From IMG/VR virus record IMGVR_UViG_3300006636_000001, positions 1 through 28,408 of that record: 28,408 nucleotides of DNA. One strand, given 5' to 3'. The notes below the pieces were generated by a model. The model had not been told where the DNA came from and did no database searches. It worked only from the letters and a program-made list of their open reading frames with translations. Position 1 is the stretch's first letter, and every line of letters starts with the position of its first letter. Shown piece after piece: positions 7,504 to 28,408 of this stretch. This DNA is from a virus. The position numbers were made by a program, and so were the translations under genes.

Positions 7504-7690
7504 ATCCGGACAGGGCGGGGCGGGGTCTTCCGTCTGAAAGGGGGAAAATAACGGTAGTTTTGCAATACTACATAACAGAATATTAGACAAATAGCATTTT
7601 ATTCACCGGAATGGTGTGATACCGGGAAAAACGTATTTTGATGGATGGAAATTGCTGGCGGTTGCCTGGTAATTACAGACCGGTTTTTGT
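7504..7690. other. Gene-free stretch with a second possible promoter
   Basis: This holds a G-rich run (GGGCGGGGCGGGG, 7513-7525) and a perfect -7 box, TAGTTTTG (7555-7562), with only a weak TCTG 18 bases upstream as -33 element. The reading frame of the downstream gene stays open back to a TTG at 7638, but the coding signal is better explained by the ATG at 7749. I see no further gene here. Confidence 0.4.
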
Positions 7691-7721
7691 TTTGATCTGT
7701 AAAAGTTTTTTGTTAAGTTTG
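7691..7721 (+). promoter_or_regulatory. Host-type promoter for the DUF4468 gene
   Basis: TTTG (7691-7694), 19 bases, then TAAGTTTG (7714-7721). This matches the Bacteroidetes consensus TTTG-N19-21-TAnnTTTG without mismatch. It lies 28 bases before ATG 7749 and gives the gene its own transcription, as expected for a moron expressed outside the lytic programme. Confidence 0.7.
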
Positions 7722-7748
7722 GAGGATAAACTTAAAACCAAATTTGTT

Positions 7749-8357
7749 ATGAGAAAACTTTTGCTTGTTTTACTTTTTTCCCCATTGCTTTCTTTTGCGC
7801 AGGAATATTCGGAGGTTGTGGAAGTACCTGGCAAATCAGTTGATCAACTTTATAGTTCTGCTCGTGAATGGTTTGCCTTAACTTTTAAATCGGCAACTGA
7901 CGTATTAAAGATGGATGATCCAATTGCCGGTAAATTAATTGGCAAAGGATCTTCTCACATCTCAGAAAGTTATGTGACTGATGGATTGATTAAAGTACCT
8001 ATTAAACTGGATTGGTATCCATCATATACCATTAGTATTGCTATTAAGGATGGAAGGTACAAATGCATCATTGCAGAAATCACAATAAAACGCATTGTAG
8101 AGGGAAGTGGAATCGCACCGATAGAAACTTCATTTAAAGAGTTCTTTGACCAAAAAGATAATTTTAAAAACGGAAGAGATCCTGAATGGTTTACAAAAAA
8201 CGTCGAAGGTGCTGGAAAACTTTCGAAGAATATGATTAAAAATAGTGCTAAGGCGTATGAATCTTATTACAATATCATTCTTAAAACAGAACAGGAATTT
8301 ACAAGTTTACTTGCTTCACTTCAAAAAAAGATGAAAGGAACAGACGATAATTGGTAA
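7749..8357 (+). CDS. Secreted DUF4468-like protein (probable moron)
   Basis: A 202-residue protein. The ATG at 7749 gives a clean signal peptide, MRKLLLVLLFSPLLSFA, with cleavage expected after Ala17 and Gln18 as the new N-terminus, a common Bacteroidetes pattern. Residues about 20-115 resemble DUF4468, a TBP-like-fold domain of exported Bacteroidetes proteins: an N-terminal strand and helix, then GKLIGKGSS, then a YTISIAIKDGRYKCIIAEI strand pair. The rest is helical and lysine-rich. The domain's biochemical function is unknown to me. It has its own promoter upstream and a strong terminator downstream. That marks it as an independent cassette, plausibly acting on the host envelope in a lysogen. 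Confidence 0.72.
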   Translation: MRKLLLVLLFSPLLSFAQEYSEVVEVPGKSVDQLYSSAREWFALTFKSATDVLKMDDPIAGKLIGKGSSHISESYVTDGLIKVPIKLDWYPSYTISIAIKDGRYKCIIAEITIKRIVEGSGIAPIETSFKEFFDQKDNFKNGRDPEWFTKNVEGAGKLSKNMIKNSAKAYESYYNIILKTEQEFTSLLASLQKKMKGTDDNW

Positions 8358-8664: not shown

Positions 8665-9228
8665 ATGAATATTCAGAAATTTAAGTTTGGTGATGTTGAG
8701 ATCGAGTTTGATCTCCGTCAAGGAAGAAATGTAATGGTGAACGCTACGGAAATGGCGAAAGTTTTTGGCAAAAAAATAAACCATTTCATGGAAAATGAAA
8801 ACACGGAAAATTTTATAAATGCGTGTTTAAATAACCGGAATTCCGGCTTTTTGGGAGTCAAAACTCGCGAAGATTTAGTAGTGTCAAAACAAAAATCTGG
8901 CACTTGGATGCACCGGGTATTAGCTTTAAAATTTGCCTCTTGGTTAAATTCTGATTTTGAAGTTTGGGTCTGGATGACTATCGACCAAATTATTTTTGGA
9001 TTTGCAATTGAAATTCAAGATTCGATCAGCGAAACCGTAATATTAAAGGCGAAACAAGATGATTTAAAGAATCAGCTTGCAAAACGCGAACCTGATTTTA
9101 TGGAGTATCTGTTAATTGATCAAAAATTGATCAACGCGAAAAGCCGTCGTAGTAATGCAACAAAGAACAAATTCAGAGAGACAATGGAAGATTTGTTCTC
9201 TAACAAACCGAAGGAGGACGAAGAGTGA
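8665..9228 (+). CDS. KilA-N domain protein
   Basis: A 187-residue protein. Residues about 1-108 form a KilA-N domain, a DNA-binding fold common in phage regulatory and antirepressor-type genes. VMVNATEMAKVFGK at 23-36 is the family's hallmark first half, and WMHRVLALKFASWLN from residue 81 followed by EVWVWMTIDQII is the second. A C-terminal helical, coiled-coil-like region (about 115-180) is lysine-rich and could mediate oligomerisation or partner binding. It is divergent from the small repressor gene. Its last four bases overlap the GTG start of the next gene, with AAGGAGG just upstream, so the two products are translationally coupled. Confidence 0.85.
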   Translation: MNIQKFKFGDVEIEFDLRQGRNVMVNATEMAKVFGKKINHFMENENTENFINACLNNRNSGFLGVKTREDLVVSKQKSGTWMHRVLALKFASWLNSDFEVWVWMTIDQIIFGFAIEIQDSISETVILKAKQDDLKNQLAKREPDFMEYLLIDQKLINAKSRRSNATKNKFRETMEDLFSNKPKEDEE

Positions 9229-9845
9229 TCAACCTTTTAAAAACAATATCCAAAGATGTGAATGCACATCTTTGGATGATTGAAGCGATGGGATTAAATC
9301 CCATTGCCTCACAAGTACCACAATCACATCAGGATAGTATGGCGAAAGATATTAGCAGAACTTACCTAATGAAACGTAGACTGGAGTACGCTATAAGCAA
9401 TCTCGAAAGTATTCGCAAGTATTGCCTGTCTGAAATTAATGGAACATTTTACGATGACTTTGAAAAACGTTGGGAAGGAACTGATATTGAGCCAAAATAC
9501 ACCATTGATACTCCGTATGAATATATTTTGGGCATATGGGACAATCATCCATCACCTGAAATCGACATTATAACAAAGGCTTTTATTGAATGTATGGGAT
9601 CGTTAAATACCAAAGTGTTGTTTAAAATGCTCGAAATATGCCCCGAAGCCGGACCATATAAACAAAATAAAGATGGTGAAATGGTAAAATCAAACATGTC
9701 TGATTGTCAAATAGACGACAGCTTAAAGGCCGGATCAATGCTTGCTGCTATTGAAGAATACAACGAGCGACTTATAAAGATTCAGGAGATTGCTAAAAAC
9801 CGTGGTAATCTGGGCCAGATACTTACCTTAATTGGTGACAAATAA
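9225..9845 (+). CDS. Unknown partner of the KilA-N protein
   Basis: A 206-residue protein that I do not recognise. The GTG start at 9225 overlaps the previous stop codon (GTGA) and follows a good Shine-Dalgarno sequence, rare for this window. It is helical and cytoplasmic. Features include RTYLMKRRLEYAISNLESIR (about residues 45-64), a Tyr/Trp-rich middle, and a C-terminal helix (MLAAIEEYNERLIKIQEIAK). Coupling to the KilA-N gene implies the two act together, perhaps as a regulator and its effector. A perfect 11-bp inverted repeat lies in its first codons. A terminator closes the pair. Confidence 0.7.
   Translation: MINLLKTISKDVNAHLWMIEAMGLNPIASQVPQSHQDSMAKDISRTYLMKRRLEYAISNLESIRKYCLSEINGTFYDDFEKRWEGTDIEPKYTIDTPYEYILGIWDNHPSPEIDIITKAFIECMGSLNTKVLFKMLEICPEAGPYKQNKDGEMVKSNMSDCQIDDSLKAGSMLAAIEEYNERLIKIQEIAKNRGNLGQILTLIGDK
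9250..9275. promoter_or_regulatory. Perfect 11-bp inverted repeat inside the start of a gene
   Basis: CCAAAGATGTG (9250-9260) and CACATCTTTGG (9265-9275) are exact reverse complements around the loop AATG. It begins 25 bases after the GTG start codon. It could be an mRNA hairpin tuning translation of the coupled gene or an operator for a dimeric repressor. Confidence 0.5.
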
Positions 9846-9853
9846 ATCAAAAA

Positions 9854-9885
9854 CCCCCGGCAGTGCTCGAAACACTAACCGGGGG
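9854..9885 (+). terminator. Terminator after the KilA-N gene pair
   Basis: CCCCCGG (9854-9860) pairs with CCGGGGG (9879-9885), extended by AGTG/CACT inside with a small bulge. The 3' side continues CAAGTTTAAATTTT, giving only a broken T-run, so termination may be partial. Confidence 0.6.
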
Positions 9886-9929
9886 CAAGTTTAAATTTTC
9901 ACGTATAAAAATTTTAACATCACAAAAGT

Positions 9930-10187
9930 ATGAAAAATTCAGAATTAAAATGCAACCTCGAAGTTGAAGGTATTACACAGACCAAGGAAGCAATCAATTA
10001 TTTGAAGAGATTGCAGGACAGAAACAATGAAGATATCATAATTGCCCGCGAGATTATTGCCGATGTAGTTTGCTTTCTTGCAAAGAAGATGGACTATATC
10101 GAAGATGCTGAAAATGAAGAAATATCATCGTTGATGAACAGCCTAAGCCATGTTCGTGAGGACCTGAATAATTTCAGAAAGCCATGA
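9930..10187 (+). CDS. Small helical hypothetical protein upstream of radC
   Basis: An 85-residue protein, unrecognised. It appears to be two or three amphipathic helices (about residues 15-35 TQTKEAINYLKRLQDR, 38-60 IIAREIIADVVCFLAKKM, and 65-80) and is acidic overall. Its ATG follows an A-rich leader. The stop overlaps the radC start by four bases (ATGA), so it is probably co-translated with that gene. It has no membrane segment: the hydrophobic run around residues 40-52 is too short and mixed. The role is unknown. Confidence 0.6.
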   Translation: MKNSELKCNLEVEGITQTKEAINYLKRLQDRNNEDIIIAREIIADVVCFLAKKMDYIEDAENEEISSLMNSLSHVREDLNNFRKP

Positions 10188-10699
10188 AAAAAGAAATTGC
10201 AAAACCAAAAATGCTTATTGAGGACGAATGTACAAATTGGCATGTTGGAGAACTCATGGTAAAATATAAAGAATTGCAACCTTGCACAATTACAATCACA
10301 ACATCAAAGAGCGTGGTTTCTGTTATACGTAATAGCATTGATCAGGAAGATCTGCTTATACAAGAGCATTTTTATGCGCTTTATATAAACTACAACAACG
10401 ATGTCTTGGGTTTTAAGACAATCAGTGTGGGTAATTTGACCGGTTGCGTATTCAATCCGCAACTGATATTAAGTATTGGACTATTGCTTAATGCAACCGG
10501 AATAATAGTTTGCCACAATCATCCAAGCGGCAATCTTGATCCCTCTGAATCAGATATTATTTATACCAAACAATTAATTTCAGCTGCAAATATTGTTGGT
10601 ATGCGTTTGCTGGATCATATTATTTTAACCAAAAACGCATTCCGATCAATGGATAATGACAACTTAGTCGATTTCAGCAAAATACCAAGAAGGTTTTAA
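10184..10699 (+). CDS. radC: RadC-like JAB/MPN-domain protein
   Basis: A 171-residue protein with the C-terminal JAB domain of RadC and no N-terminal helix-hairpin-helix part, a form common on mobile elements. The metal-site JAMM motif is complete: Glu61, His111 and His113 (CHNHPSGN), then Asp124 exactly ten residues after the second histidine's neighbourhood (PSESD). The first 40 residues are unlike RadC. Despite its name, RadC has no settled role in repair. In phages and plasmids the JAB domain is suspected to be a metal-dependent hydrolase or anti-defence factor. It sits between two small unknown genes in the accessory island. Confidence 0.88.
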   Translation: MKKEIAKPKMLIEDECTNWHVGELMVKYKELQPCTITITTSKSVVSVIRNSIDQEDLLIQEHFYALYINYNNDVLGFKTISVGNLTGCVFNPQLILSIGLLLNATGIIVCHNHPSGNLDPSESDIIYTKQLISAANIVGMRLLDHIILTKNAFRSMDNDNLVDFSKIPRRF

Positions 10700-10729
10700 A
10701 AATCTAAGAAAACCATAAATCATAAAAAT

Positions 10730-10948
10730 ATGAATACAATAGACTTACAAACCGTAAAAGAATTAAAGGCCAGTGAATTATCCGAATTATTACAAGCGAA
10801 GGTTCGTCGTATTTGTGAACAGGCAAAGATGAACTTCGATAACATTCATTTCATCCGTGACGATAAAGAGGAAAACTACATGGATATGTTCGATGGTGAT
10901 GAATTCACCTATTGGGGATATTTTATTGACACAAACGAAATTGATTAA
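10730..10948 (+). CDS. Small acidic hypothetical protein
   Basis: A 72-residue protein that I do not recognise, 30 bases after radC with an A-rich leader. The N-terminal half is helical (LQTVKELKASELSELLQAKV), while the C-terminal half is acidic and aromatic (MDMFDGDEFTYWGYFIDTNE). Small, acidic and aromatic proteins of this type are frequent among phage inhibitors of host defence and DNA-binding proteins, but that is only analogy. It is the last gene before a terminator, and may share a transcript with radC. Confidence 0.55.
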   Translation: MNTIDLQTVKELKASELSELLQAKVRRICEQAKMNFDNIHFIRDDKEENYMDMFDGDEFTYWGYFIDTNEID

Positions 10949-10980
10949 TACCTATTCTTTATTTTTGCATATTTCACGAA

Positions 10981-11008
10981 AACCCGTCTCCCCAAAAGGC
11001 GGGTTTTT
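10981..11008 (+). terminator. Terminator, left copy of a duplicated sequence
   Basis: AACCCGTC (10981-10988) pairs with GGCGGGTT (10998-11005, one G-U pair), loop TCCCCAAAA, then T-run to 11008. The 26 bases from 10983 to 11008 recur exactly at 12105-12130, on the other side of the toxin-antitoxin-like pair. Confidence 0.8.
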
Positions 11009-11047
11009 ATGCCTTCAAATTGCGAAACAAAAAGGTTCAGCTGCACG

Positions 11048-11080
11048 TTTATTAATTGATATTTCTTTTACTTACATTTG
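11048..11080 (+). promoter_or_regulatory. Host-type promoter for the antitoxin-like gene
   Basis: TACATTTG (11073-11080) is an exact -7 box. TTTA (11048-11051) stands 21 bases upstream in the -33 place. The gene starts at 11117. The pair can therefore be expressed independently of phage late transcription. Confidence 0.55.
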
Positions 11081-11116
11081 CAGTGAAAATACACACCGAA
11101 AAGAAAGAAGACAAAC

Positions 11117-11656
11117 ATGGACAAATTCACCTATAATGAGCAAAAGGCTGTTGCTGCAGTATTGCTGGTTGTAAACGAGCTTTCCAGCGTCGACAGACAC
11201 AAAATTGCAAAGATCCTTTTCTTTGCAGATCAAAAACACCTCGCCAGATATGGCAGAACAATTACCTCCGACTTCTATTGTGCCATGGAAGCCGGTCCGG
11301 TTCCTTCAAACATCTACGATTCGATAAAGGTTATTGCACACGAACGCAATTTTTATAACCACCATGGTCTTGAAGGTAAAATCGAAGTCAGGGGAAGAGA
11401 AATAACCGCGCTGGAAAAACCCGACATTGATCAGTTATCGATTTCGGATATGGAGTGCCTGGTTGAATCAATCAATGAAAATTCGAAACTTACCTATGGA
11501 CAGCTCATTGATAAGTCACATGGTACGGCATGGCAAAGCGTTCCCGACAATCAACTAATTCCGTTTACAGAGATCGCCAAAGAAGTTTCGGCACCTGCTG
11601 AAATTCTTGAACTTATAAATTCAAACCTTCAAGCAGAGGAACTTTTAAGTTTATGA
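11117..11656 (+). CDS. SocA/Panacea-domain (DUF4065) antitoxin-like protein
   Basis: A 179-residue protein. The Panacea domain covers about residues 8-140: KILFFADQKHLARYGR (32-47) and FYCAMEAGPVPSNIYD (53-68) are its hallmark stretches. WQSVPDN in the C-terminal part follows the usual layout. Panacea proteins are antitoxins paired with many unrelated toxins, and SocA acts as a proteolysis adaptor for its toxin. The stop overlaps the next gene by four bases (ATGA), the usual antitoxin-first arrangement. The pair has its own promoter and is enclosed by identical terminators. It is likely an addiction or anti-phage module carried as cargo. Confidence 0.85.
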   Translation: MDKFTYNEQKAVAAVLLVVNELSSVDRHKIAKILFFADQKHLARYGRTITSDFYCAMEAGPVPSNIYDSIKVIAHERNFYNHHGLEGKIEVRGREITALEKPDIDQLSISDMECLVESINENSKLTYGQLIDKSHGTAWQSVPDNQLIPFTEIAKEVSAPAEILELINSNLQAEELLSL

Positions 11657-12102
11657 GTAGCCTCAGGGATTCCCTTTCAGCCGGAGGTTTAAGAAATTTA
11701 ATCGCCTCACAAATACAGCCTGGCGCTGTATTTGTAATTTTAGACCCGATAGCGAGAAAGGAAAAGTTTATTGTGATCCTGGGTATTGATGCCGGTAGAA
11801 TTTGGGTGGGAACCCTGTTCATCAACAGCGAAAAGAATGTGAATTTTATCAAGACGCTGGAACAACATGGCTTACAGTTTACAATAAAGGCCTCCAACTA
11901 CGAATTTCTTGATTACGATTCCTTTATCAATGCTTCAAATATCATCAGGCGTGAGTTTGAAAAGCTGGTTGATATTATAATTGCCAGAGATGGAAGATAT
12001 TTAACACAGATCATCCCCAAAGACTTCGATTACATCAGGGCAAAAATGGCAGGTTCGAAAGTCGTTTCAACCGCTGACAAAAAAGACTTTGGATTAATCT
12101 AA
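11653..12102 (+). CDS. Candidate toxin paired with the Panacea antitoxin
   Basis: A 149-residue protein coupled to the antitoxin gene by a four-base overlap. Residues about 22-60 (QPGAVFVILDPIARKEKF, then VILGIDAGRIWVGTLFINSE) look like the SH3-type barrel of MazF/PemK-like or related proteins. A later YEFLDYDSFINASNI (83-97) matches the strand-then-helix step I expect in such folds. The C-terminus is a charged helix and a lysine-rich tail. MazF-type enzymes cut RNA, but I cannot identify catalytic residues here, so the activity is a guess. Position is the main support for a toxin role. Confidence 0.65.
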   Translation: MSSLRDSLSAGGLRNLIASQIQPGAVFVILDPIARKEKFIVILGIDAGRIWVGTLFINSEKNVNFIKTLEQHGLQFTIKASNYEFLDYDSFINASNIIRREFEKLVDIIIARDGRYLTQIIPKDFDYIRAKMAGSKVVSTADKKDFGLI

Positions 12103-19200: not shown

Positions 19201-19946
19201 ATATATCTAAATTAGAAAAACAAAAAGTTGATGCAACTCATGATGCTGCATTGAGAAGGATTGGTATTGCTCAGGATTTTCTTGGCGCATTGAGCGGAAT
19301 TGTAGATCAGGAATCTGCATTAGGAAAGGCGCTTTTCCTCTTTCAACAAGGACTTGCTGTTGCAAGTATATGGATTAGTACAGCAAAGGCCAATGCAGAA
19401 GCAATGGCGACGTTGATTCTACCCCCTTTATATCTGCCAGTTATGGCAGCTAATACAACTATGGCAATTGTGCAAACAGCGCTTGTTGCAGCACAAACAG
19501 TAGGTAATTTTGTGGCAAGTGGCAAGAAAGGCAAACAATCAGGAGGCTATGCCGATAGTGATTCAAACGACTCGACCCCGGTTGGAGTTTATCACGCCAA
19601 TGAGTTTATTGCTTCAGGACCTGCCGTAAGGAATCCTACTATCAAACCGGTTCTTGATATTATCGATATTGCCCAACGTTCTGGAACAATACGCAGTTTG
19701 AATCTGCCGGCGATGCTTGGTCAGTCCGGAAGACAGTCCGGAGGGTATGCTTCGCCTGGACCAGCAACTTCAGTTCCTTCTTCTGTGATACCAGGAAGTA
19801 GCCCGGAATTGATGGCAATCATGACAAAGATAAGTGCCCAGCTCGACAAACCGATCACTGCCAATGTCGCTGCATATGGTGGAAAAGGATCTGTAGCTGA
19901 TTCGATAAAACAGATTGCTAACCTTGCTAAATCACTGGGAATATGA
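16218..19946 (+). CDS. Tail tape measure protein
   Basis: A 1242-residue protein. Tape measure proteins set tail length and are ejected with the DNA. The first 130 residues are an alanine/lysine-rich coiled coil (EAALGALAEKAKGLRKDLKE and others). Hydrophobic, membrane-like segments lie near 146-163, 473-493 (LIPLAAALAAYVVMAKLKVF), 532-552 and 1039-1098, and long coiled coils occupy about 700-940. A proline/glycine-rich linker at about 722-735 (PPPKPSGSGGGDGGKP) splits the protein. At the usual 1.5 angstroms per residue this would give a tail of roughly 180 nm, which supports a siphovirus. No peptidase domain is obvious. Confidence 0.9.
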   Translation: MAQTETARATVYLDGKQAEAALGALAEKAKGLRKDLKEALDAGNTVKYDKLRAELSRVESVQRSVTKESFDVAKVLRNINNVSWRDLEKAQKAVIAQMKGMTRGTEEYAAKQKDLGLLRAELSGISGIATKQTGILGKLRDTAAELLPAFGLAAIALGLKNIFTTADDSYVKFEERVDNLSALTGLEGEQLDWLSKKAKETSVSTVEGNVRITQSAESIVDAYTKVGSQRPELLKVKEDLASVSQEAIILSAAAKSELEPAVEGLTMTLNQFDMAADQSRRIINVLAAGSMVGAGEIPYLTEAMEKSGTTANLMKIPLEQWAGAIESIAPYYKQASEAGNSFDKVLLTMKQKQIGYVNGVFDMNTALDQLEKRYAAGETATDIFMKEHSKMGELLVLNRGKMDEYTKAVTGSNIAIEQAAKNTDNEVAKRAQAQNGINNLYLEFGAKIAPLITKGITSGAELLRIAIEYRTVLIPLAAALAAYVVMAKLKVFWDVTQKGSVILASAAQALFTGNLTRATAAMRMFNTVTKLNPFILLASLIASAGIALFAYTKRSDAAVVAQRSLNDISVTAQQNIASERVELQQLLKVAQNETLSKVTRQEAMAKINQISPEYLGGLTLETINTDKAKTATEQYITSLEKKARAQANFDRMVEIQKEETSLNAGIGGEPGVGTKVWNAVSRPFLYNQLNASSKQKNINARLEELRIEKLSLNDDASSNYVPPPKPSGSGGGDGGKPTETPEEKKAREKAEKAALKTAEKVEKTKLELVEAANAHIVASINKSHLEGKTSESQYNADLLEQEFIFLQGKMDIYKVGSKEYEDASAAFTEKQVKASEQVKDLLVKAEKELADAKIANLKDGIDKEKALENNRWADELAGLKKRLADITGTSVDEVALRKSINDIIEQNEKAHTEKMRILNSADDIAKLEKQQKDFGNINDSADNYSTSTPWLSGKDLNAFFDSRKDVIEQAFIVEKKLAGDNQKLQKAAEEKHNVDISKLEKQKVDATHDAALRRIGIAQDFLGALSGIVDQESALGKALFLFQQGLAVASIWISTAKANAEAMATLILPPLYLPVMAANTTMAIVQTALVAAQTVGNFVASGKKGKQSGGYADSDSNDSTPVGVYHANEFIASGPAVRNPTIKPVLDIIDIAQRSGTIRSLNLPAMLGQSGRQSGGYASPGPATSVPSSVIPGSSPELMAIMTKISAQLDKPITANVAAYGGKGSVADSIKQIANLAKSLGI

Positions 19947-21616
19947 AACAAATAATAACACCACTTGGAATCGTTGCCCTTTCACCAGGCACAACGATTG
20001 ATATATCCAAAAATAATCCGCTGTTCACGCGTGCTGAAGAATTCTCGATCTCCCTGACAGTTCCCCGGTTGCCAAATGAACATATTTTTGGCCATAAGTG
20101 GCGATTAACATCAGCTGGAGCTATTGTTCCAATCGAAGTTCAGTTTGTTTTTTTTGGACGCGAAAAATTGAGTGGCACCATCGAACTGATATCTGGCTCG
20201 GATGAAAGTTACGAGATCCTAATGAAGGGATCCCGTAGCGATTTCATATTTCGTTATGGAAAGATCCGGTTACCAGAGATTGATTTTGGTTGGGAAAACT
20301 TTGTACCTGGTAACGCGAATCCATTGGAAGCCGATATGCAAACAGAGATGTATAATACACTGAACCTGCAGCGCGATTGGATCTGTTTTCCGGTTTACCA
20401 TACAGAAGCAGGGGAATGGATAAACAGATGGAGCTTCGATACTAACGGTTTCGCAATGGATATCGGAGGATGGCGCACAGCACATGTGCGTTTATACAGG
20501 GCATTGGAACGTCTTTTCGCAATTAAGGGATACACGGTCACAGATAACTGGTTTTCGGATACAGATGAGAAAAAGAAGATTGTAATCTTTAATAACGGAA
20601 GGGCGCTGGCGAGTCAAATGAATATCAGGTTTCTGTTACCTGACTGGACCATTACTGAGTTCATCAATGAAATAGAAGACTTTTTCCCGGTAACATTCTT
20701 TATCAACTCCCGAAATAAAACGGTCCGTATCTTGTCAGATGATACAGTTTCAGCTTCAGACCCCGTTGATTCACTTGACAGATTTGTTGTCGGAAAGCAT
20801 AAAATTAATTTCAATGATACCCAAAATGGGTACGATATCACCTATGAGCTACCCGCTGATGATGAAACAACAGATCAGAACTGGGACTATGCCGATCAGG
20901 CTACGGTCGAAGAGGTAAATACATTCTCTGATCTTCCGGATGCAGGGGTTATTTGTCTTGTAGTGAGCGAAGGTCAGTATTACGAATATGATGAGAGTGA
21001 CCCGCTTGTGCCATGGAAACCATCCGGGAATGTAGCACTTGGAATACGTTCAGGAGAGGGAGAAATAAGCCGGAAAACAAAAATTTATCCTTTACTTTCA
21101 AAAACACAACTTCAGCCAGAAACCGTCACAGTAATACAGCAATACGTGGATATCCGACGTGTCGCAATAAATTTTAAGCTGGTGGTACCTCACACATCCA
21201 AAATTGCCAGCAAGTGGTCACAGGATTTCAGACCTGTTATTTATCGCGGGATGGAAACGCCTTTATATTCGATGTCCGATATCCCGTCTGGTTATGTTGC
21301 GCAAATTAATGGTTACCCGATGGCCAATTATATCAATCGTAAAATTACCGGCGCACGCTGGCCGGGTCAGTCAATTGATCTTTGCTGGAATGGAGATCAG
21401 GGATTACAGGGCGCACAGGCAATTGCTTTTTTGGATGGTGCCGAAAAGACAGAGGTAAAACTGTTAATGAATCATGTGGATCTTGAAAATATGGACATGA
21501 CAAAGGTTTACATTCTGCTCGGTCGAAGAGTGCTGATATCTGAACTTACAATTCACTACTCAGAAGGAACCAATGTTGAAATTGATGCAGTACTATTGGC
21601 ACAGGCCCGTGTGTAG
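19943..21616 (+). CDS. Distal tail/baseplate protein
   Basis: A 557-residue protein coupled to the tape measure gene by a four-base overlap (ATGA), the usual location of the distal tail protein. The N-terminal half has the strand-rich pattern of the tail-tip ring: DISKNNPLFTRAEEFSISLT (about 21-40), PIEVQFVFFGREKLSGTIEL (about 66-85), then ESYEILMKGSRSDF. The middle contains a WTITEFINEIEDFFPVTFFI helix (about 234-253) like the hub part of gp27-type proteins. The end (ISELTIHYSEGTNVEIDAVL) is again beta. It would start tail assembly and carry the fibre. Whether it combines distal tail and hub functions cannot be settled here. Confidence 0.7.
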   Translation: MKQIITPLGIVALSPGTTIDISKNNPLFTRAEEFSISLTVPRLPNEHIFGHKWRLTSAGAIVPIEVQFVFFGREKLSGTIELISGSDESYEILMKGSRSDFIFRYGKIRLPEIDFGWENFVPGNANPLEADMQTEMYNTLNLQRDWICFPVYHTEAGEWINRWSFDTNGFAMDIGGWRTAHVRLYRALERLFAIKGYTVTDNWFSDTDEKKKIVIFNNGRALASQMNIRFLLPDWTITEFINEIEDFFPVTFFINSRNKTVRILSDDTVSASDPVDSLDRFVVGKHKINFNDTQNGYDITYELPADDETTDQNWDYADQATVEEVNTFSDLPDAGVICLVVSEGQYYEYDESDPLVPWKPSGNVALGIRSGEGEISRKTKIYPLLSKTQLQPETVTVIQQYVDIRRVAINFKLVVPHTSKIASKWSQDFRPVIYRGMETPLYSMSDIPSGYVAQINGYPMANYINRKITGARWPGQSIDLCWNGDQGLQGAQAIAFLDGAEKTEVKLLMNHVDLENMDMTKVYILLGRRVLISELTIHYSEGTNVEIDAVLLAQARV

Positions 21617-21690: not shown

Positions 21691-24600
21691 ATGAGTATCA
21701 TTGTTCAACAACCCGATTCGCTTTCTTTTGCAGGGAACCTCAAAAAGTTTGTTGTCACCTCCGCTGTGGCTGTCGCGCTGCAGCTGAACAAGGGAGCTGA
21801 ACAGATTCTGAATGAGATCTACCAGCCCGGCTCTGGCAACCTCGTAGAAATCGACCTTCGTACCGTAATTGACAAAGTATTGTCAGTTACGTTACCAGGC
21901 ACAAACCTGATCACCGAACAGTCTTCCGGATTTGCTGATTTCACCGCGACAATTGACGGTACCGCCGTTGCTTTCCGCGTAATCAAAGGTGGTGTGCTGG
22001 AACTTGGATCGATGGCCGGTGATTTTGTAAATGAGCATTTCCTTACCTGGCAGATCCAGGACAAACAGATATTGCAGCGCCAACCCGAATGGCTGACAGT
22101 TTATACCGTTGCAGCCCGCAACCTCAAAGCAAAAGCCTACTACCAGGATAATACAAACGCCTCGATGCTGCTTACTGCACTCGCTGCCAATAAACTTTTG
22201 GCCGTTGATGTGAGCTGGGCATCTATCAACTCACTTTTCGTAAAGAAAAACCCGATTGCCTGGGAAGTATGGTTCGAAGATCTTGCCGGGACCCGGTTAA
22301 GTTATGTGCAGCGGTATTGCCTCCGGAATTCGGATGACGAAGAGAAAATATTTATCTGGGCGAATACAATGGGAGGTATTGATTCCATATCGCTCACAGG
22401 TAGTGCCGAGGATGATAAAAAGCTCGAGCATTTAATTGCCGAAATGGGTGATGAATCCCTGCAGGAATATCAAACCGATAAGAAACGGGAAATCAAACAG
22501 TCAACCGGATTTTTGACTGTTGATGAAAGCCGGTGGATAGAAGACTTTTTCTATTCCGGCCGCAGGTACCTGGTTGGCGAAGATGGAGCAGTAAGATCAA
22601 TTGTTTTAGCGAGCTCGAAGATTGTAGGATCAACCGCTGATGACTTGTTTGATTACGAATTCAATTACAGGTTAGCCTCCGAAAGTCAATTACTCAATCT
22701 TGAAAGATCATTTGAATCATTTCCAGCATTGGAGGTGCCGGTTGATTTTTTTTTAACTGAGTTACTGTCCGGGCTTCCGGTAGCTCAGTATTCTGACGGC
22801 CTTTTGATGGCTGTTCAAAGCCCTTTTGCCCAGGCGTGGCAAAAACTATCCATGGCACAATTATGGGGATCTGCACTTCCCTGCCTCGTTGATGGAACTA
22901 CAATCTCAGTCGTGAACGGAAAGCTCCAGGTAAATGGAGTATCCGGAGGAGTTGGCGTTTCGAAGTGGGGAGATCTCACTGAAAAACCCTTTTCAACTTT
23001 ATCAAATCTCTTTTCTGTCAGTCCGGAGGGAGTATTAACGTTGTCAAATAACTATGCTGCCGCCAATCACACACACCCATACCTTTCTGATTCGGATGCA
23101 CGGATCGGCAATTGGACCACTGCATATAATTGGGGAGATCACACCGGAAAATACCGACCAGTTGCATGGGTTCCAGCATGGGCAGATATATCCAATAAAC
23201 CTGAATGGTTGAATAGAATGGGTTGGGATGGAACAGCAACTGTTGTTTCTTCTGATCTTCACGTTACAGGCAAATTGGTTGTTGATGGAACAATTCAATT
23301 CTTTGGTTCTGGCGCCGGTGGTGGCACCGGTGGTGGCGGAGCATCCGCACTCTGGGAATTAACCGACGTGGACGATGACATGAAGAATTCCCTCTTTGGT
23401 GATCTTCCGATGTATAACGGTACTCACTTTGCCAGGTACAATATTTCAAATTTTGCAACAGCCGGTCATGGACACACGATCGGTCAGGTAACAGGCTTAC
23501 AGGGAGCTCTCGATGGGAAACAAGCATCATTGGGTTATACTCCTTACTACTCAGCTAATTTTGTAGCCGGCGTAAATTACTCAGCGCCTCACTCCCACCC
23601 TTACCTATCAGACAGCGACGCGAGAATTGCCAATTGGAGTACTGCTTTCGGATGGGGCAATCATGCAGGATTATACAGACCAATTGGATATGTGCCCAGC
23701 TGGGGAGAAATAACCAGTAAACCAACCTGGACGGAAAAGATGGGATGGGATGGGACCGCTGTGACAATTGCCGGTGATTTACATGTAACCGGTAAAATTA
23801 TTTCTGATGGTTCGATGCAGTTTTATGGCATCAGTTCCGGTGGTACCGGTGGCGGTGGATCTACAACGCTTTGGGGATTGACGGACGTTGCCGATGACGT
23901 GGTAAATGCGGTATATGGAGATCTGATCATGTATAATGGAACCCATTTTGCCAGGATCAATCAATCGATTCTGGCACCGGCTGTGCATACGCACGCGATA
24001 TCGCAGGTTAATGGATTGCAGGGAGCGCTCGACACAAAAATGGCAATTCACACACATCCTTACCTATCTGATGCTGATAGTAGAATAGCCAATTGGAATG
24101 TTGCTTATACTCATAGTCAAAGTGCCCACTACGCCGGGGCGGATGTTGGAAGCTGGGCAAAAGTAGCTACTATCCCTGTCTGGAATCAATCAACAACAGG
24201 AAATGCAGATACAGCATCAAATTCAGGGCAATGGGGAGGCATTTCTACTGGCTTTTGGCAGGGCAATTATACCAGTGGAATCTCAGGAATAATAGGAGTT
24301 CACACTAACGGAATTGCTTATACGTTCAGCGCAGGAGCAGCACAATCTTTTCTTGGCTTAGGCTCCAACGCTTATAATTCAACAGCTTATCAGCTTTTGG
24401 AAAATCAAAGATTATCAACAACTAATTCACCAACCTTTGCAGGTGGAAATTTTACAGGTTCACTATCTGCACCCAATATTCTAACTTACAGAATTTATTA
24501 TGACTTAAACGCGTACACAACTGGGTATCCACCAACATACGGATTTACTCACGTTAATACTCCAACAGGTAGTTTTGTAAACTATTTAGTAATTGGTGGT

Positions 24601-25599
24601 GATAATGGTGGATATGCGACACAAATAGCAGGAGATGCTTACGGTAATGGGTTCTATTATAGAAACCTATCAGATAATGTAATTAAAAGTACTGGCTCAA
24701 ACGGATGGAATAGAGTTTATGATGTAACCAATTTGAATCGTTCAGATATTGCTATTACTGCAAGTACTGTAATAATGAATGGTTTATTTCAATCTGACAG
24801 TGATTATTTCTTTTATAACAAAAATTATTCAGCGTTCCGAAATATTAGCGCAGGTGATATTAATGGAACTGGTTTAGTATTAAGCGGAAGAGCAATATTT
24901 AAAACTGATGTTTGGAACATAAGTAGTGATAATCAACAACGATTTTATTTTTCACCAAATGGAGTAACATATATTAAAGGAGCTGATATAATTTTTCGTA
25001 ATAACTCCGATACAGCTTTATTAACTCTTACTTCTACAAATACAGCAATATTTGGTGGTAGTGTTGGAGTTTACGCAACAAACAATTCAACTTATGGACT
25101 TAATGTTACTGGAACAGCAGGTGGAGCAAGAACTATATTTTTAGCAGGTCAAACAGGTTTTTCAAATGGTTTTAACGTTAGTTATGATGGCACTAAAATG
25201 GTTTATAACTTTCAAAATGGTGATTCAACTTTTGGTGGTAATATTACTGCAAGTGGCAATATAATTGGCCTTGGCACAATGCAATTTTACACCGCATCCG
25301 ATCGCAGGTTAAAAACCGACTTTCAGCCCATCATAAACCCTATCGAGAAAATCAAATCCCTTACCGGTTACTTTTTCAATTACACCGATCAGGCGATGCA
25401 ATTAGGAGGCTACACTTCACGCCGGGATATCGGTTTGATTGCGCAGGACGTTCACAACATCCTTCCTGAAGCAACCGGAAAACTTTGGAATACTGATTTT
25501 ATGGGGTACAAAGCTGACAAGCTGATCCCTTTATTAGTGGAGGCCATCAAACAACAACAAAACGAAATTGATCAACTAAAAAGACAAATAGCAGCATGA
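21691..25599 (+). CDS. Tail fibre/receptor-binding protein with S74 intramolecular chaperone
   Basis: A 1302-residue protein that likely recognises the host. Residues about 1-440 are a tail-attachment part. Residues 460-806 hold two large repeats and a start of a third. About 830-1200 is a beta-rich, Asn/Thr/Gly-rich region unlike the rest in base composition. Residues 1202-1302 form a peptidase S74 chaperone: SDRRLKTDFQPI with Ser1203 and Asp1204 at the self-cleavage point, GLIAQDV, and a final IPLLVEAIKQQQNEIDQLKR coiled coil. In this family the chaperone folds the trimer and then cuts itself off. Glycine linkers (GGGTGGGG) separate repeat parts. Promoter C precedes it. Confidence 0.85.
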   Translation: MSIIVQQPDSLSFAGNLKKFVVTSAVAVALQLNKGAEQILNEIYQPGSGNLVEIDLRTVIDKVLSVTLPGTNLITEQSSGFADFTATIDGTAVAFRVIKGGVLELGSMAGDFVNEHFLTWQIQDKQILQRQPEWLTVYTVAARNLKAKAYYQDNTNASMLLTALAANKLLAVDVSWASINSLFVKKNPIAWEVWFEDLAGTRLSYVQRYCLRNSDDEEKIFIWANTMGGIDSISLTGSAEDDKKLEHLIAEMGDESLQEYQTDKKREIKQSTGFLTVDESRWIEDFFYSGRRYLVGEDGAVRSIVLASSKIVGSTADDLFDYEFNYRLASESQLLNLERSFESFPALEVPVDFFLTELLSGLPVAQYSDGLLMAVQSPFAQAWQKLSMAQLWGSALPCLVDGTTISVVNGKLQVNGVSGGVGVSKWGDLTEKPFSTLSNLFSVSPEGVLTLSNNYAAANHTHPYLSDSDARIGNWTTAYNWGDHTGKYRPVAWVPAWADISNKPEWLNRMGWDGTATVVSSDLHVTGKLVVDGTIQFFGSGAGGGTGGGGASALWELTDVDDDMKNSLFGDLPMYNGTHFARYNISNFATAGHGHTIGQVTGLQGALDGKQASLGYTPYYSANFVAGVNYSAPHSHPYLSDSDARIANWSTAFGWGNHAGLYRPIGYVPSWGEITSKPTWTEKMGWDGTAVTIAGDLHVTGKIISDGSMQFYGISSGGTGGGGSTTLWGLTDVADDVVNAVYGDLIMYNGTHFARINQSILAPAVHTHAISQVNGLQGALDTKMAIHTHPYLSDADSRIANWNVAYTHSQSAHYAGADVGSWAKVATIPVWNQSTTGNADTASNSGQWGGISTGFWQGNYTSGISGIIGVHTNGIAYTFSAGAAQSFLGLGSNAYNSTAYQLLENQRLSTTNSPTFAGGNFTGSLSAPNILTYRIYYDLNAYTTGYPPTYGFTHVNTPTGSFVNYLVIGGDNGGYATQIAGDAYGNGFYYRNLSDNVIKSTGSNGWNRVYDVTNLNRSDIAITASTVIMNGLFQSDSDYFFYNKNYSAFRNISAGDINGTGLVLSGRAIFKTDVWNISSDNQQRFYFSPNGVTYIKGADIIFRNNSDTALLTLTSTNTAIFGGSVGVYATNNSTYGLNVTGTAGGARTIFLAGQTGFSNGFNVSYDGTKMVYNFQNGDSTFGGNITASGNIIGLGTMQFYTASDRRLKTDFQPIINPIEKIKSLTGYFFNYTDQAMQLGGYTSRRDIGLIAQDVHNILPEATGKLWNTDFMGYKADKLIPLLVEAIKQQQNEIDQLKRQIAA
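23068..24108 (+). repeat. Diverged tandem repeats inside the fibre gene
   Basis: Repeat 1 spans 23068-23589 (174 codons), repeat 2 23590-24048 (153 codons) and a partial third 24049-24108. Each begins HxHPYLSDxDxRI and contains, in order, GxWDGTA-type and LHVTGK blocks, a Gly-rich linker, LWxLTDV and QGALD. The 21-codon length difference is a KQASLGYTPYYSANFVAG-type insert at the end of repeat 1. This is a classic shaft-lengthening duplication. Confidence 0.8.
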
Positions 25600-26570
25600 G
25601 CAAAAGACTATACACCTATGCCGGATTTACGGCAACGGATCTAAAAAATAGGGCATCAATACCGAGCCAGACAGACATCACTGTTGGATCAAACTACATT
25701 GATTGTTCCTCGGTTGATATCCCTTCAGAAATCCGTGATATAATTGGTGAAGGGTCGAACGATCTCGGCACAATCTACATGAGTGCGAAGGTTAATAAAT
25801 GGAGTGGCTTTGGACCACGAGAATGGTATGTTTCAGGAGGTTTATTACTTAACCGGGTTAAGGCATTACCCTATGACATGGCCAATTTTTGTGGATACAA
25901 TCACAATGCAGTCACACCTGGTTGGATGGGAGGATCTTATATCACAGATTTTAAATACGTTCAGACCGACAATTCAAAAGTTTTGTCAGGCGGCTTGCAA
26001 GGTGGTGAAATTGATTTTCTTATAATGGTTGGCGCCACGCATGTTAAGTGGGTTATTAAAGATCCCGGAGGAAATGTGATTGGATCCAGTCTCGCTGCAT
26101 TAGGCAGTTATTATAATTCAAACCCTATTATCCCTGTTTGTACGATCACAATGGGAAATTGGACAGGAGTTAAAAATCTATCATCTACAATTTACCTGTC
26201 AAATTCTTTTGGGGATGAACTTTGTGTTTATCCGGGCACAACAGCCTGGACAATTATAGCGACGCAACGATTAAATCCTGCAGGCGCGGTGTTGCCGTCG
26301 GGCTCAGTAATCAAAATTGTAGCCGGAAGCGCAACCCTTGATTTGGCTGGAAACTATACGATCACAATCAATAATATGACGCGTTATAGTATGACTCCTT
26401 ACACTGGCCGTGTCAATATTGTTGCAAATCTATACAATGAAGTTAATGGGCTGATTCACACGCAACAGATTACAACAAATGATAGTGCCCGTAGTTTTGC
26501 CGGATACCTGACGCATGCAGCTGACTATGACTATCACGTTGAATTCTTAATATCAAATGCCGATGCTTAA
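25596..26570 (+). CDS. Fibre-associated structural protein, unknown family
   Basis: A 324-residue protein that I do not recognise. It overlaps the fibre stop by four bases (ATGA). It is mostly beta, rich in Tyr, Asn, Thr and Ser, with few charges: GREWYVSGGLLLNRVKALPY at about 75-95, VLSGGLQGGEIDFLIMVGAT at about 129-148, and a C-terminal NIVANLYNEVNGLIHTQQIT region. The N-terminal 50 residues have a SDIPS-like bend (SVDIPSEIRDIIGEGSNDLG). That composition fits a fibre tip or a second fibre. No signal peptide. The metallopeptidase-like gene overlaps its end by 14 bases. Confidence 0.6.
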   Translation: MSKRLYTYAGFTATDLKNRASIPSQTDITVGSNYIDCSSVDIPSEIRDIIGEGSNDLGTIYMSAKVNKWSGFGPREWYVSGGLLLNRVKALPYDMANFCGYNHNAVTPGWMGGSYITDFKYVQTDNSKVLSGGLQGGEIDFLIMVGATHVKWVIKDPGGNVIGSSLAALGSYYNSNPIIPVCTITMGNWTGVKNLSSTIYLSNSFGDELCVYPGTTAWTIIATQRLNPAGAVLPSGSVIKIVAGSATLDLAGNYTITINNMTRYSMTPYTGRVNIVANLYNEVNGLIHTQQITTNDSARSFAGYLTHAADYDYHVEFLISNADA

Positions 26571-27048
26571 AAGGCTACTATTTAGTATCGTTTTTCTGAT
26601 TTCGATTGCCGCATCAGCGCAAAACAAAGTCATTAACATGACGAAGTGGAATATTGACAGTTACGTCAATAACTGTTTGTCAGATTTGAAAATTGATAGT
26701 TGCATGATAGTTCTGCAACCTTCAGACATCTTGATTTACGGAGAGTATCCGGGGGTTACGATCAAAAATACAGACAGGGTATTTACTGTCGTAGTTTATG
26801 ATTTCATTGGCTATGATGAGGCATGTTTGACAATCGGACATGAGTTATGCCATGTAATGCAATTCATTACCGGGTCGCTTCAGATTGATCAAAATAAAAA
26901 AATCATTTTCGATGGCAAGGGATATAAAGCAAATTCGACGTCTGAGTATTACAATGCTCATGAGGTCGAAGCAAGAATTCAGGGATTAAGACTGTTTGCA
27001 AAATACAAACGCAAAGTCTATTCACCACCAGTCGCGCGAGTTTTTTAA
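26557..27048 (+). CDS. Exported zinc metallopeptidase-like protein (HExxH)
   Basis: A 163-residue protein. Residues 1-21 are a signal peptide (MPMLKRLLFSIVFLISIAAS) with cleavage after ASA, leaving Gln22 first. The start may equally be ATG 26563. HELCH (95-99) is a zincin HExxH motif, with Glu96 catalytic. Downstream NAHEVEAR (133-140) offers Glu136 or Glu138 as the third zinc ligand. The surrounding TIGHELCHVMQ resembles several small zinc peptidase families; I cannot pick one. The mature part has two cysteines (40, 49) that could form a disulfide in the periplasm. It follows the fibre genes, so it may act on host surface or envelope proteins. Confidence 0.7.
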   Translation: MPMLKRLLFSIVFLISIAASAQNKVINMTKWNIDSYVNNCLSDLKIDSCMIVLQPSDILIYGEYPGVTIKNTDRVFTVVVYDFIGYDEACLTIGHELCHVMQFITGSLQIDQNKKIIFDGKGYKANSTSEYYNAHEVEARIQGLRLFAKYKRKVYSPPVARVF

Positions 27049-27079: not shown

Positions 27080-27382
27080 ATGGAACTTATTTCAGAAAAA
27101 AAGAGATTGATTACCAATAGAGTTGGTAGAATCATGGGAGTTGATGTTAATTTCAACTTCGAACAAAACATTGGCGAAGCTCCTTCGACCGTTAATGCAA
27201 ATTGCAGTATTCCTGGTGCGACACCAGAATCGGGATCGTGTAATATCACGATCAACAGGCAAACGAACGGACAGAAGTCGATTGCTATCAATGGTAACAA
27301 GAACATCGTAGAGTTATATCCCGTCATCGAGGAGATTGAGGCGGAACTCGAAATCATTGCAGTGGAAGGAGTCGTAGCCTAA
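27080..27382 (+). CDS. Small hypothetical protein in the late region
   Basis: A 100-residue protein, unrecognised. The N-terminus is basic (MELISEKKRLITNRVGRIMG) and the middle is beta-like and Asn/Thr-rich (PSTVNANCSIPGA). The C-terminal helix is acidic (ELYPVIEEIEAELEII). Two cysteines (about residues 42 and 54) lie 12 apart. There is no signal peptide or membrane span. Its stop shares one base with the next gene's start (TAATG), so the two are translated together. They lie between the metallopeptidase-like gene and a terminator. A small tail or virion accessory protein is possible, but nothing shows it. Confidence 0.55.
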   Translation: MELISEKKRLITNRVGRIMGVDVNFNFEQNIGEAPSTVNANCSIPGATPESGSCNITINRQTNGQKSIAINGNKNIVELYPVIEEIEAELEIIAVEGVVA

Positions 27383-27717
27383 TGAAAATAAAACTTACCG
27401 CAAGTGACCGACTGAGCACAGCCCAGTTCTTACCTGCAGAAGGGAATACTTCAGAGCAGATGATCGGGAAAAGTATCCTGGATAAGACAAAACTCACCAA
27501 AGAAGAGAAGGCCAAAATTAAACCCGATTTATTCTACCAGGGCGAAATTGATCCGGATACTGACTTCTCCCGGGAGTTTGATTTCAGTGCCGAAGAGTTC
27601 AATTTGATGTACTCCGAATACCGGAAAAAGGAGGATGACAAAAAACTGAACAAAACAAATATCTGCATGGCTCTGAAGCTAATTGAAGCAAAAGACGCCA
27701 TCAAGGAAAAGAAGTAA
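27382..27717 (+). CDS. Small charged hypothetical protein
   Basis: A 111-residue protein that I do not recognise. Its start overlaps the previous stop by one base. It is highly charged: KLTKEEKAKIKPDLFYQGEI (about 38-57), then DFSREFDFSAEEFNLMYSEY (about 60-79) and a Lys/Glu-rich C-terminal helix (KKEDDKKLNKTN, LKLIEAKDAIKEKK). It is probably helical and cytoplasmic. It ends the fibre-region transcript, followed at once by a terminator. A chaperone or assembly role would suit its charge pattern, but this is only a guess. Confidence 0.55.
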   Translation: MKIKLTASDRLSTAQFLPAEGNTSEQMIGKSILDKTKLTKEEKAKIKPDLFYQGEIDPDTDFSREFDFSAEEFNLMYSEYRKKEDDKKLNKTNICMALKLIEAKDAIKEKK

Positions 27718-27746
27718 TTCTTCAACTTTGTCAGCATAGAAATTTA

Positions 27747-27775
27747 AAACCCGGTCACCGCGATCGGGTTTTTTT
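27747..27775 (+). terminator. Terminator ending the fibre operon
   Basis: AAACCCGGTC (27747-27756) pairs with GATCGGGTTT (27762-27771) over 10 bp with one G-U pair, loop ACCGC, and a run of seven T (27769-27775). The next base begins promoter D. Confidence 0.8.
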
Positions 27776-27828: not shown

Positions 27829-27852
27829 ATGGCCGAAAGGCGTAAAAATTGA
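27829..27852 (+). other. Seven-codon leader ORF before the lysis genes
   Basis: ATG 27829 opens MAERRKN and stops at TGA (27850-27852), six bases before the ATG at 27858. It contains GCCGAAAGGC, a small GNRA-type hairpin. It may be a leader that modulates translation of the lysis-region gene, or a chance frame. Confidence 0.25.
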
Positions 27853-27857
27853 ATACT

Positions 27858-28139
27858 ATGGAAGACAATGACGAAAGCCGAGGATGGATCAAAACCATTA
27901 CCATAATAGGAGTAGTCCTCACAATTGTAATAAATGTCGGATCAATACTTTATTCTACATTGATTAAAAATAATGACCTGAAAAATGATGTTAAAGCAAT
28001 GGATAGTAGAATATCGAAAGTTGAAGTGGCGGTAATAAACATTCAGGACAAAAAACTGGACAAAGAAACATTCAATTTGATTCTCACAACATTGACAGAA
28101 TTGCGGTCAGATATACGGGATTTATCAAACAAAAAATAA
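27858..28139 (+). CDS. Small membrane protein with coiled coil (lysis-region candidate)
   Basis: A 93-residue protein. ATG 27858 is chosen over a TTG nine bases upstream. One transmembrane segment (about residues 11-34, IKTITIIGVVLTIVINVGSI) follows a short charged N-terminus, then a coiled coil with a regular DLKNDVKAMDSRISKVEVAV pattern and an ISKxEVAV-type heptad, ending basic. This shape recalls haemolysin XhlA-type or holin-accessory proteins, with the segment at the other end. It is the first full gene after promoter D and is followed after 3 bases by a second membrane protein, as in a lysis cassette. Confidence 0.6.
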   Translation: MEDNDESRGWIKTITIIGVVLTIVINVGSILYSTLIKNNDLKNDVKAMDSRISKVEVAVINIQDKKLDKETFNLILTTLTELRSDIRDLSNKK

Positions 28140-28142
28140 CTC

Positions 28143-28408
28143 ATGAAAAACTTTCTTAAAACCTTCAAAGAGGAAATGGTATTTATACCAATTTTGATCA
28201 TTGCTTTCTTCGGAATTAACTGGTTTTTTAGCTCCTGGTTCCCGGATTCGGCCTTCTTCGATTTCTACTCTCAGCTTGAAACGATTGCATTCAGGGTATT
28301 ATCGTTTGTGTTGGTTTTGGCAATCGCATGGTTTGGGTTAAGAATCGCATTTCCGCAAATGTTTCACTACCTGATTGACGATTTTTATCAGGACTTCAAA
28401 AACTTTGA
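28143..28408 (+). CDS. Holin-like membrane protein (partial, runs off the window)
   Basis: At least 88 residues, open to the window's last base. It starts MKNFLKTFKEEMVFIPILII, with hydrophobic segments at about 12-30 and 48-68 and an aromatic stretch between. The C-terminal part seen (PQMFHYLIDDFYQDFKNF) is acidic and aromatic. Two-helix proteins of this form, often next to an amidase, occupy the lysis region of Bacteroidetes prophages and are assumed to act as holins. It directly follows the single-span protein. Its end and the expected endolysin lie outside the window. Confidence 0.6.
   Translation, partial: MKNFLKTFKEEMVFIPILIIAFFGINWFFSSWFPDSAFFDFYSQLETIAFRVLSFVLVLAIAWFGLRIAFPQMFHYLIDDFYQDFKNF

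Follow-up and report, generated by a model that had tools for sequence, protein, structure and literature searches.

Small zincins of the families phrog_10499 and phrog_16532 are found in many phages, where their role is so far unexplained; both profiles are annotated as having unknown function. Described members, such as ORF071 of Xanthomonas phage XacN1, AAY80_057 of Stenotrophomonas phage DLP_6 and a protein of Caulobacter phage Cr30, lie among other genes in much larger phages. A small zincin fold is also that of the SprT-like/Spartan proteins (PF10263), which are not known to be exported. The M61/M1 gluzincins (PDB entry 7xyo) share an HExxH motif with a downstream glutamate on a second helix, but are far larger, multi-domain proteins. 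Secreted cargo genes of phages are commonly located near fibre and lysis genes, as are lom and bor of phage λ. Like the gene described here, lom and bor are cargo genes that lie close to tail-fibre and lysis genes, encode exported proteins and are expressed in the lysogen (PMC7067206), with export and expression presumed for the present gene; Lom and Bor differ in being outer-membrane proteins with no enzymatic motif and no homology to the zincin. SprT-like proteases of jumbo phages have been argued, from their patchy distribution, to target host proteins (PMC7824862). Here, we describe a gene in a 28 408-nucleotide stretch of viral DNA (the window) that is predicted to encode a secreted variant of this common phage enzyme family.

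The gene and its product

The gene is a genuine open reading frame located exactly where the first-pass annotation had placed a secreted HExxH protein, an assignment borne out by the frame itself, an apparent signal peptide and the HELCH sequence at residues 95–99 (Table 1). The leader, MPMLKRLLFSIVFLISIAASA, is followed by Gln-Asn and contains a basic pair (Lys5 and Arg6), a hydrophobic core (residues 7–18) and a predicted cleavage site between ASA and QN. An A-x-A site followed by Gln is a common end of signal peptides in Bacteroidota. The mean Kyte–Doolittle value of the core, 2.91, is the highest among all family members compared; the cleavage site was judged by eye and from hydropathy. 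The alternative start, at Met3, aligns with the start of the homologue in contig L128.

The 5′ end of the gene overlaps the end of g25596 by 14 bases, with the S74 fibre gene further upstream. On its 3′ side, two small genes are followed by a terminator and then by the lysis cassette of Rz-like and endolysin genes, so that the zincin gene belongs to the fibre-side transcript. The position between fibre and lysis genes, at first considered unusual, is less so, as this is a typical spot for phage cargo genes.

Table 1. Features of the zincin locus and its surroundings (window coordinates).
Feature	Position	Strand	Basis
Tail fibre with C-terminal S74 chaperone domain	21691..25599	+	Domain search
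g25596, fibre-associated protein, left flank of insertion site	25596..26570	+	Sister-phage comparison
Predicted exported zincin, 163 residues	26557..27048	+	Sequence, family, alignment, model
Predicted signal peptide, residues 1–21 (alternative start 26563 possible)	26557..26619	+	Sequence, hydropathy, L128 match
Cys40 and Cys49, possible disulfide	26674..26703	+	Alignment
HELCH zinc-binding motif (His95, Glu96, His99)	26839..26853	+	Alignment; on helix 86–105 of model
Glu136, predicted third zinc ligand	26962..26964	+	Invariant in alignment; on helix 134–150
g27080, small conserved gene, right flank of insertion site	27080..27382	+	Sister-phage comparison
g27382, small conserved gene	27382..27717	+	Sister-phage comparison
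Intrinsic terminator, fibre/cargo transcript versus lysis genes	27746..27772	+	Also L128:8667-8691
Rz-like spanin candidate	27849..28139	+	phrog_7686, E = 2.6e-4
Membrane-anchored endolysin N-terminus, cut by window end	28143..28406	+	Homologue L072:7549-8388

Family and predicted fold

Searches of Pfam and NCBIfam with the protein gave no significant match, and the SprT-like model PF10263 did not match it. Among the PHROGs profiles, phrog_10499 matched nearly the full length (residues 20–155; E = 1.5e-10) and phrog_16532 also matched (E = 2e-5). Both profiles are matched by all 16 aligned members, and 9 of 16 relatives gave weak PF10263 matches; the relatives comprise the XacN1, DLP_6 and Cr30 proteins and those of fifteen viral contigs. 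The relatives have the pattern HExxHxxQ...GxL...ExxA in common with the window protein. Together, these matches place the protein in the widespread phage zincin family phrog_10499/16532. Direct searches of the phages, plasmids, viral_contigs and genome_contigs collections with the protein returned no close relative. The sole match in genome_contigs (L107, Alphaproteobacteria), a protein of 406 residues with only the HELCH region in common, was set aside. A scan for the pattern HELCHVxQ[FY] added one more leaderless family member (L112), together with other zincins.

Six residues are invariant in the 17-row alignment: His95, Glu96, His99, Gln102, Glu136 and Ala139. An HExxH sequence turns up in 0.12% of shuffles of the protein. 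As the pattern used to retrieve fifteen of the contigs (L091–L105) itself contained HExxH, conservation of this motif among them is not counted as an argument; the independent evidence is Gln102, Glu136 and Ala139, together with the full motif in L128 and L088–L090, which were found otherwise. Of the two glutamates first put forward as candidate ligands, Glu136 stands, whereas Glu138 varies. The third-ligand site reads AHE in the window protein, PHE in L128 and PWE in the others, with the glutamate kept throughout; PWE is common in the family and was not treated as defining.

Structure prediction, which the first-pass annotation had proposed around these residues, places the HExxH on one helix and Glu136 on a later one (Table 1); the AlphaFold model has a mean pLDDT of 77, with the core above 90. 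In the model, this arrangement is that of a gluzincin. The best viral fold matches are phage proteins annotated as SprT-like (TM 0.66–0.70; E = 1.5e-8 for the top one), and the best PDB match is the M61 gluzincin 7xyo, which is weak (E = 5.7e-3) and has no significant sequence match to the protein. SprT-like is used here as a description by fold, of what the protein works like, and not as membership of PF10263. The protein appears to be exported and is probably a catalytic zincin.

Insertion site and lifestyle of the carriers

The junction between g25596 and g27080 was compared in five phages. The zincin gene occupies it on the + strand in the window and on the − strand in L128, where its stop codon overlaps that of g25596. 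In L127, L129 and L068 the junction is empty, with g25596 followed directly by g27080; the terminase of the L068 phage is 95% identical to that of the window. The L128 zincin is the one close relative found and was reached only via g27080, which occurs at 73–91% identity in three contigs. Records of terminase relatives yielded no zincin copy, many of them being fragments that end short of the site.

The L128 zincin is 49% identical to the window protein over 154 residues and retains a signal peptide (MKYVLLASALFCSLSAMTM), the motif as HELVH, Glu136, Cys40 and Cys49. Between the two genes synonymous sites are saturated while pN is 0.32 in the mature part, which indicates purifying selection. 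For the flanking genes of the same two phages, identity is 94, 86 and 95%, a disparity with the zincins which suggests that the two copies entered the same junction separately and were probably acquired independently. A DNA-inversion switch, a possibility prompted by the reversed L128 copy, was rejected on the same disparity. The GC content of the zincin genes (38% in the window and 35% in L128) differs modestly from that of the window (42%).

The L128 record contains an integrase downstream, directly beside a tmRNA gene (L128:12908-13301; tag GENNFALAA). tmRNA genes are a known kind of integration site, and the arrangement suggests that the L128 phage integrates at ssrA. The adjoining integrase and tmRNA gene indicate that this phage is probably temperate. 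The window phage is probably likewise a temperate Bacteroidota phage; no integrase is found in the window, which stops inside the lysis cassette, short of the region matching that of L128.

Proposed function and alternatives

We propose, with a probability of about 60%, that the gene is a moron, a lysogenic-conversion cargo gene for an exported metallopeptidase that may alter the surface of the lysogen, rather than a structural or lysis component. Its optional presence, its occurrence on either strand between genes that are adjacent elsewhere, its deviant composition and the temperate sister carrier fit such a gene. In the mechanism that we envisage, a temperate lineage of tailed Bacteroidota phages would have acquired, between g25596 and g27080, the gene for a small gluzincin-type metallopeptidase recruited from the leaderless phage SprT-like family phrog_10499/16532 and provided with a signal peptide. 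The protein would be exported by Sec and cut after Ala21, with a Cys40–Cys49 disulfide possibly stabilizing it; zinc would be bound through His95, His99 and Glu136, with Glu96 as the catalytic base. Once in the periplasm or beyond the cell, the enzyme would cleave a protein that belongs to the host envelope or lies around it, and most plausibly the changed lysogen surface would confer superinfection exclusion or another fitness trait, the former being the most natural benefit. Export and catalysis are inferred from sequence; expression in the lysogen and the kind of substrate are proposed.

As to expression, accessory loci in prophages commonly show high expression in the lysogen, and a gene lying antisense to the lytic genes of a prophage is described as typical of a moron locus (PMC7067206). 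The L128 copy, being on the opposite strand, requires separate transcription; upstream of it there is one candidate promoter of the Bacteroidota type, which carries a mismatch; 8% of shuffles contain one or more sites of this kind. A search for a strong promoter for the zincin gene found none. In the window, where the gene is on the + strand and overlaps the 3′ end of the fibre operon, its expression may be confined to the late stage.

The first-pass annotation had also considered help with release and an envelope protease acting at lysis. Such an enzyme would be produced from the fibre transcript at a late stage, leave the cytoplasm before the holin is triggered and aid release by cutting proteins of the outer membrane, the S-layer or the gliding machinery. 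The window gene does lie on the same strand as the fibre operon and overlaps it, a signal peptide is present and the lysis cassette begins 0.8 kb downstream. Against this, three sister phages are without the gene and its L128 homologue faces the other way, and a gene that is optional and found on either strand argues against a role at lysis or in the virion. A terminator conserved in the window and L128 phages divides the zincin and g27382 from the lysis genes. The endolysins of the two carriers also differ, that of the window being membrane-anchored like the L072 enzyme and that of L128 of another kind, so the zincin is not tied to one lysis type. A role at lysis is less likely than cargo, and we regard it as unlikely. 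An endolysin role for the zincin itself was rejected, both carriers having separate endolysins.

The protease might instead be freed with the progeny and trim receptors on nearby cells or on debris, sparing new phages from binding to dead surfaces. The signal peptide and the adjoining fibre genes suit this proposal; however, neither an adhesion domain nor a C-terminal domain for type IX secretion was seen in the 163 residues of the protein, for which Pfam gave no match, and the gene is absent from sisters with related fibres. It seems improbable. Trimming of host surface proteins and a block to further adsorption, both raised in the first-pass annotation, are possible effects of the protein.

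The hydrophobic N-terminal stretch could also be an uncleaved anchor or the product of a mis-called start, the protein then being intracellular. A signal peptide is absent from all 18 distant relatives examined, as would be expected from this; but both close members have diverged yet similar leaders (22% identical, compared with 49% for the mature parts), and the Cys40/Cys49 pair is common only to these two, the leaderless relatives being without it. We consider this quite improbable. The first-pass annotation had asked whether relatives keep HExxH, and had taken loss of it or of the signal peptide in most relatives as telling against its reading. Such loss is not seen in the close group, since the L128 homologue retains both; in the distant relatives it is the signal peptide that is absent. 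With the wider family leaderless, export would be a local innovation.

Cleavage of the fibre or g25596 during virion processing is highly improbable: gene order and the proposal that in certain jumbo phages another zincin takes part in maturation (PMC7824862) are in its favour, but a signal peptide would take the enzyme out of the assembly compartment, and sisters with homologous fibre and g25596 proteins are without the zincin, a virion role being unlikely also for an optional gene.

An optional zincin that is secreted, whose insertion site is well defined and has empty counterparts, and which has a temperate sister carrier would narrow the possible substrates to the Bacteroidota envelope or its surroundings. 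Surface modification of the lysogen by a prophage through proteolysis, if true, would be an uncommon means of excluding superinfecting phages. A literature search for phage-encoded secreted metalloproteases found nothing relevant. That the exported SprT-like zincins of temperate Bacteroidota phages form a class of their own among lysogenic-conversion enzymes, cleaving a host surface receptor or machinery part and so giving superinfection exclusion, is a tentative and rather doubtful generalization.

Other features of the window and related phages

The tail gene at 19943-21616 of the window is far more divergent between the sister phages than are terminase and portal, and a mosaic adsorption region starts here. 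In the related phage L072, fibre-region proteins (L072:9091-12882) display motifs of the GNS/GDYG..H type and resemble SGNH hydrolases by eye. Just after the terminase gene, at 7638-8357, lies the gene for another protein that apparently has a signal peptide (MRKLLLVLLFSPLLSFAQ, from an internal start); the protein has a DUF4468 domain, and its gene may be a further cargo gene. Between terminase and portal (8665-12102) lies an accessory block with KilA-N, RadC-like JAB and SocA/Panacea antitoxin-like proteins, in which the SocA/Panacea antitoxin-like gene and its downstream partner (11653-12102) may form a toxin–antitoxin or defence pair.
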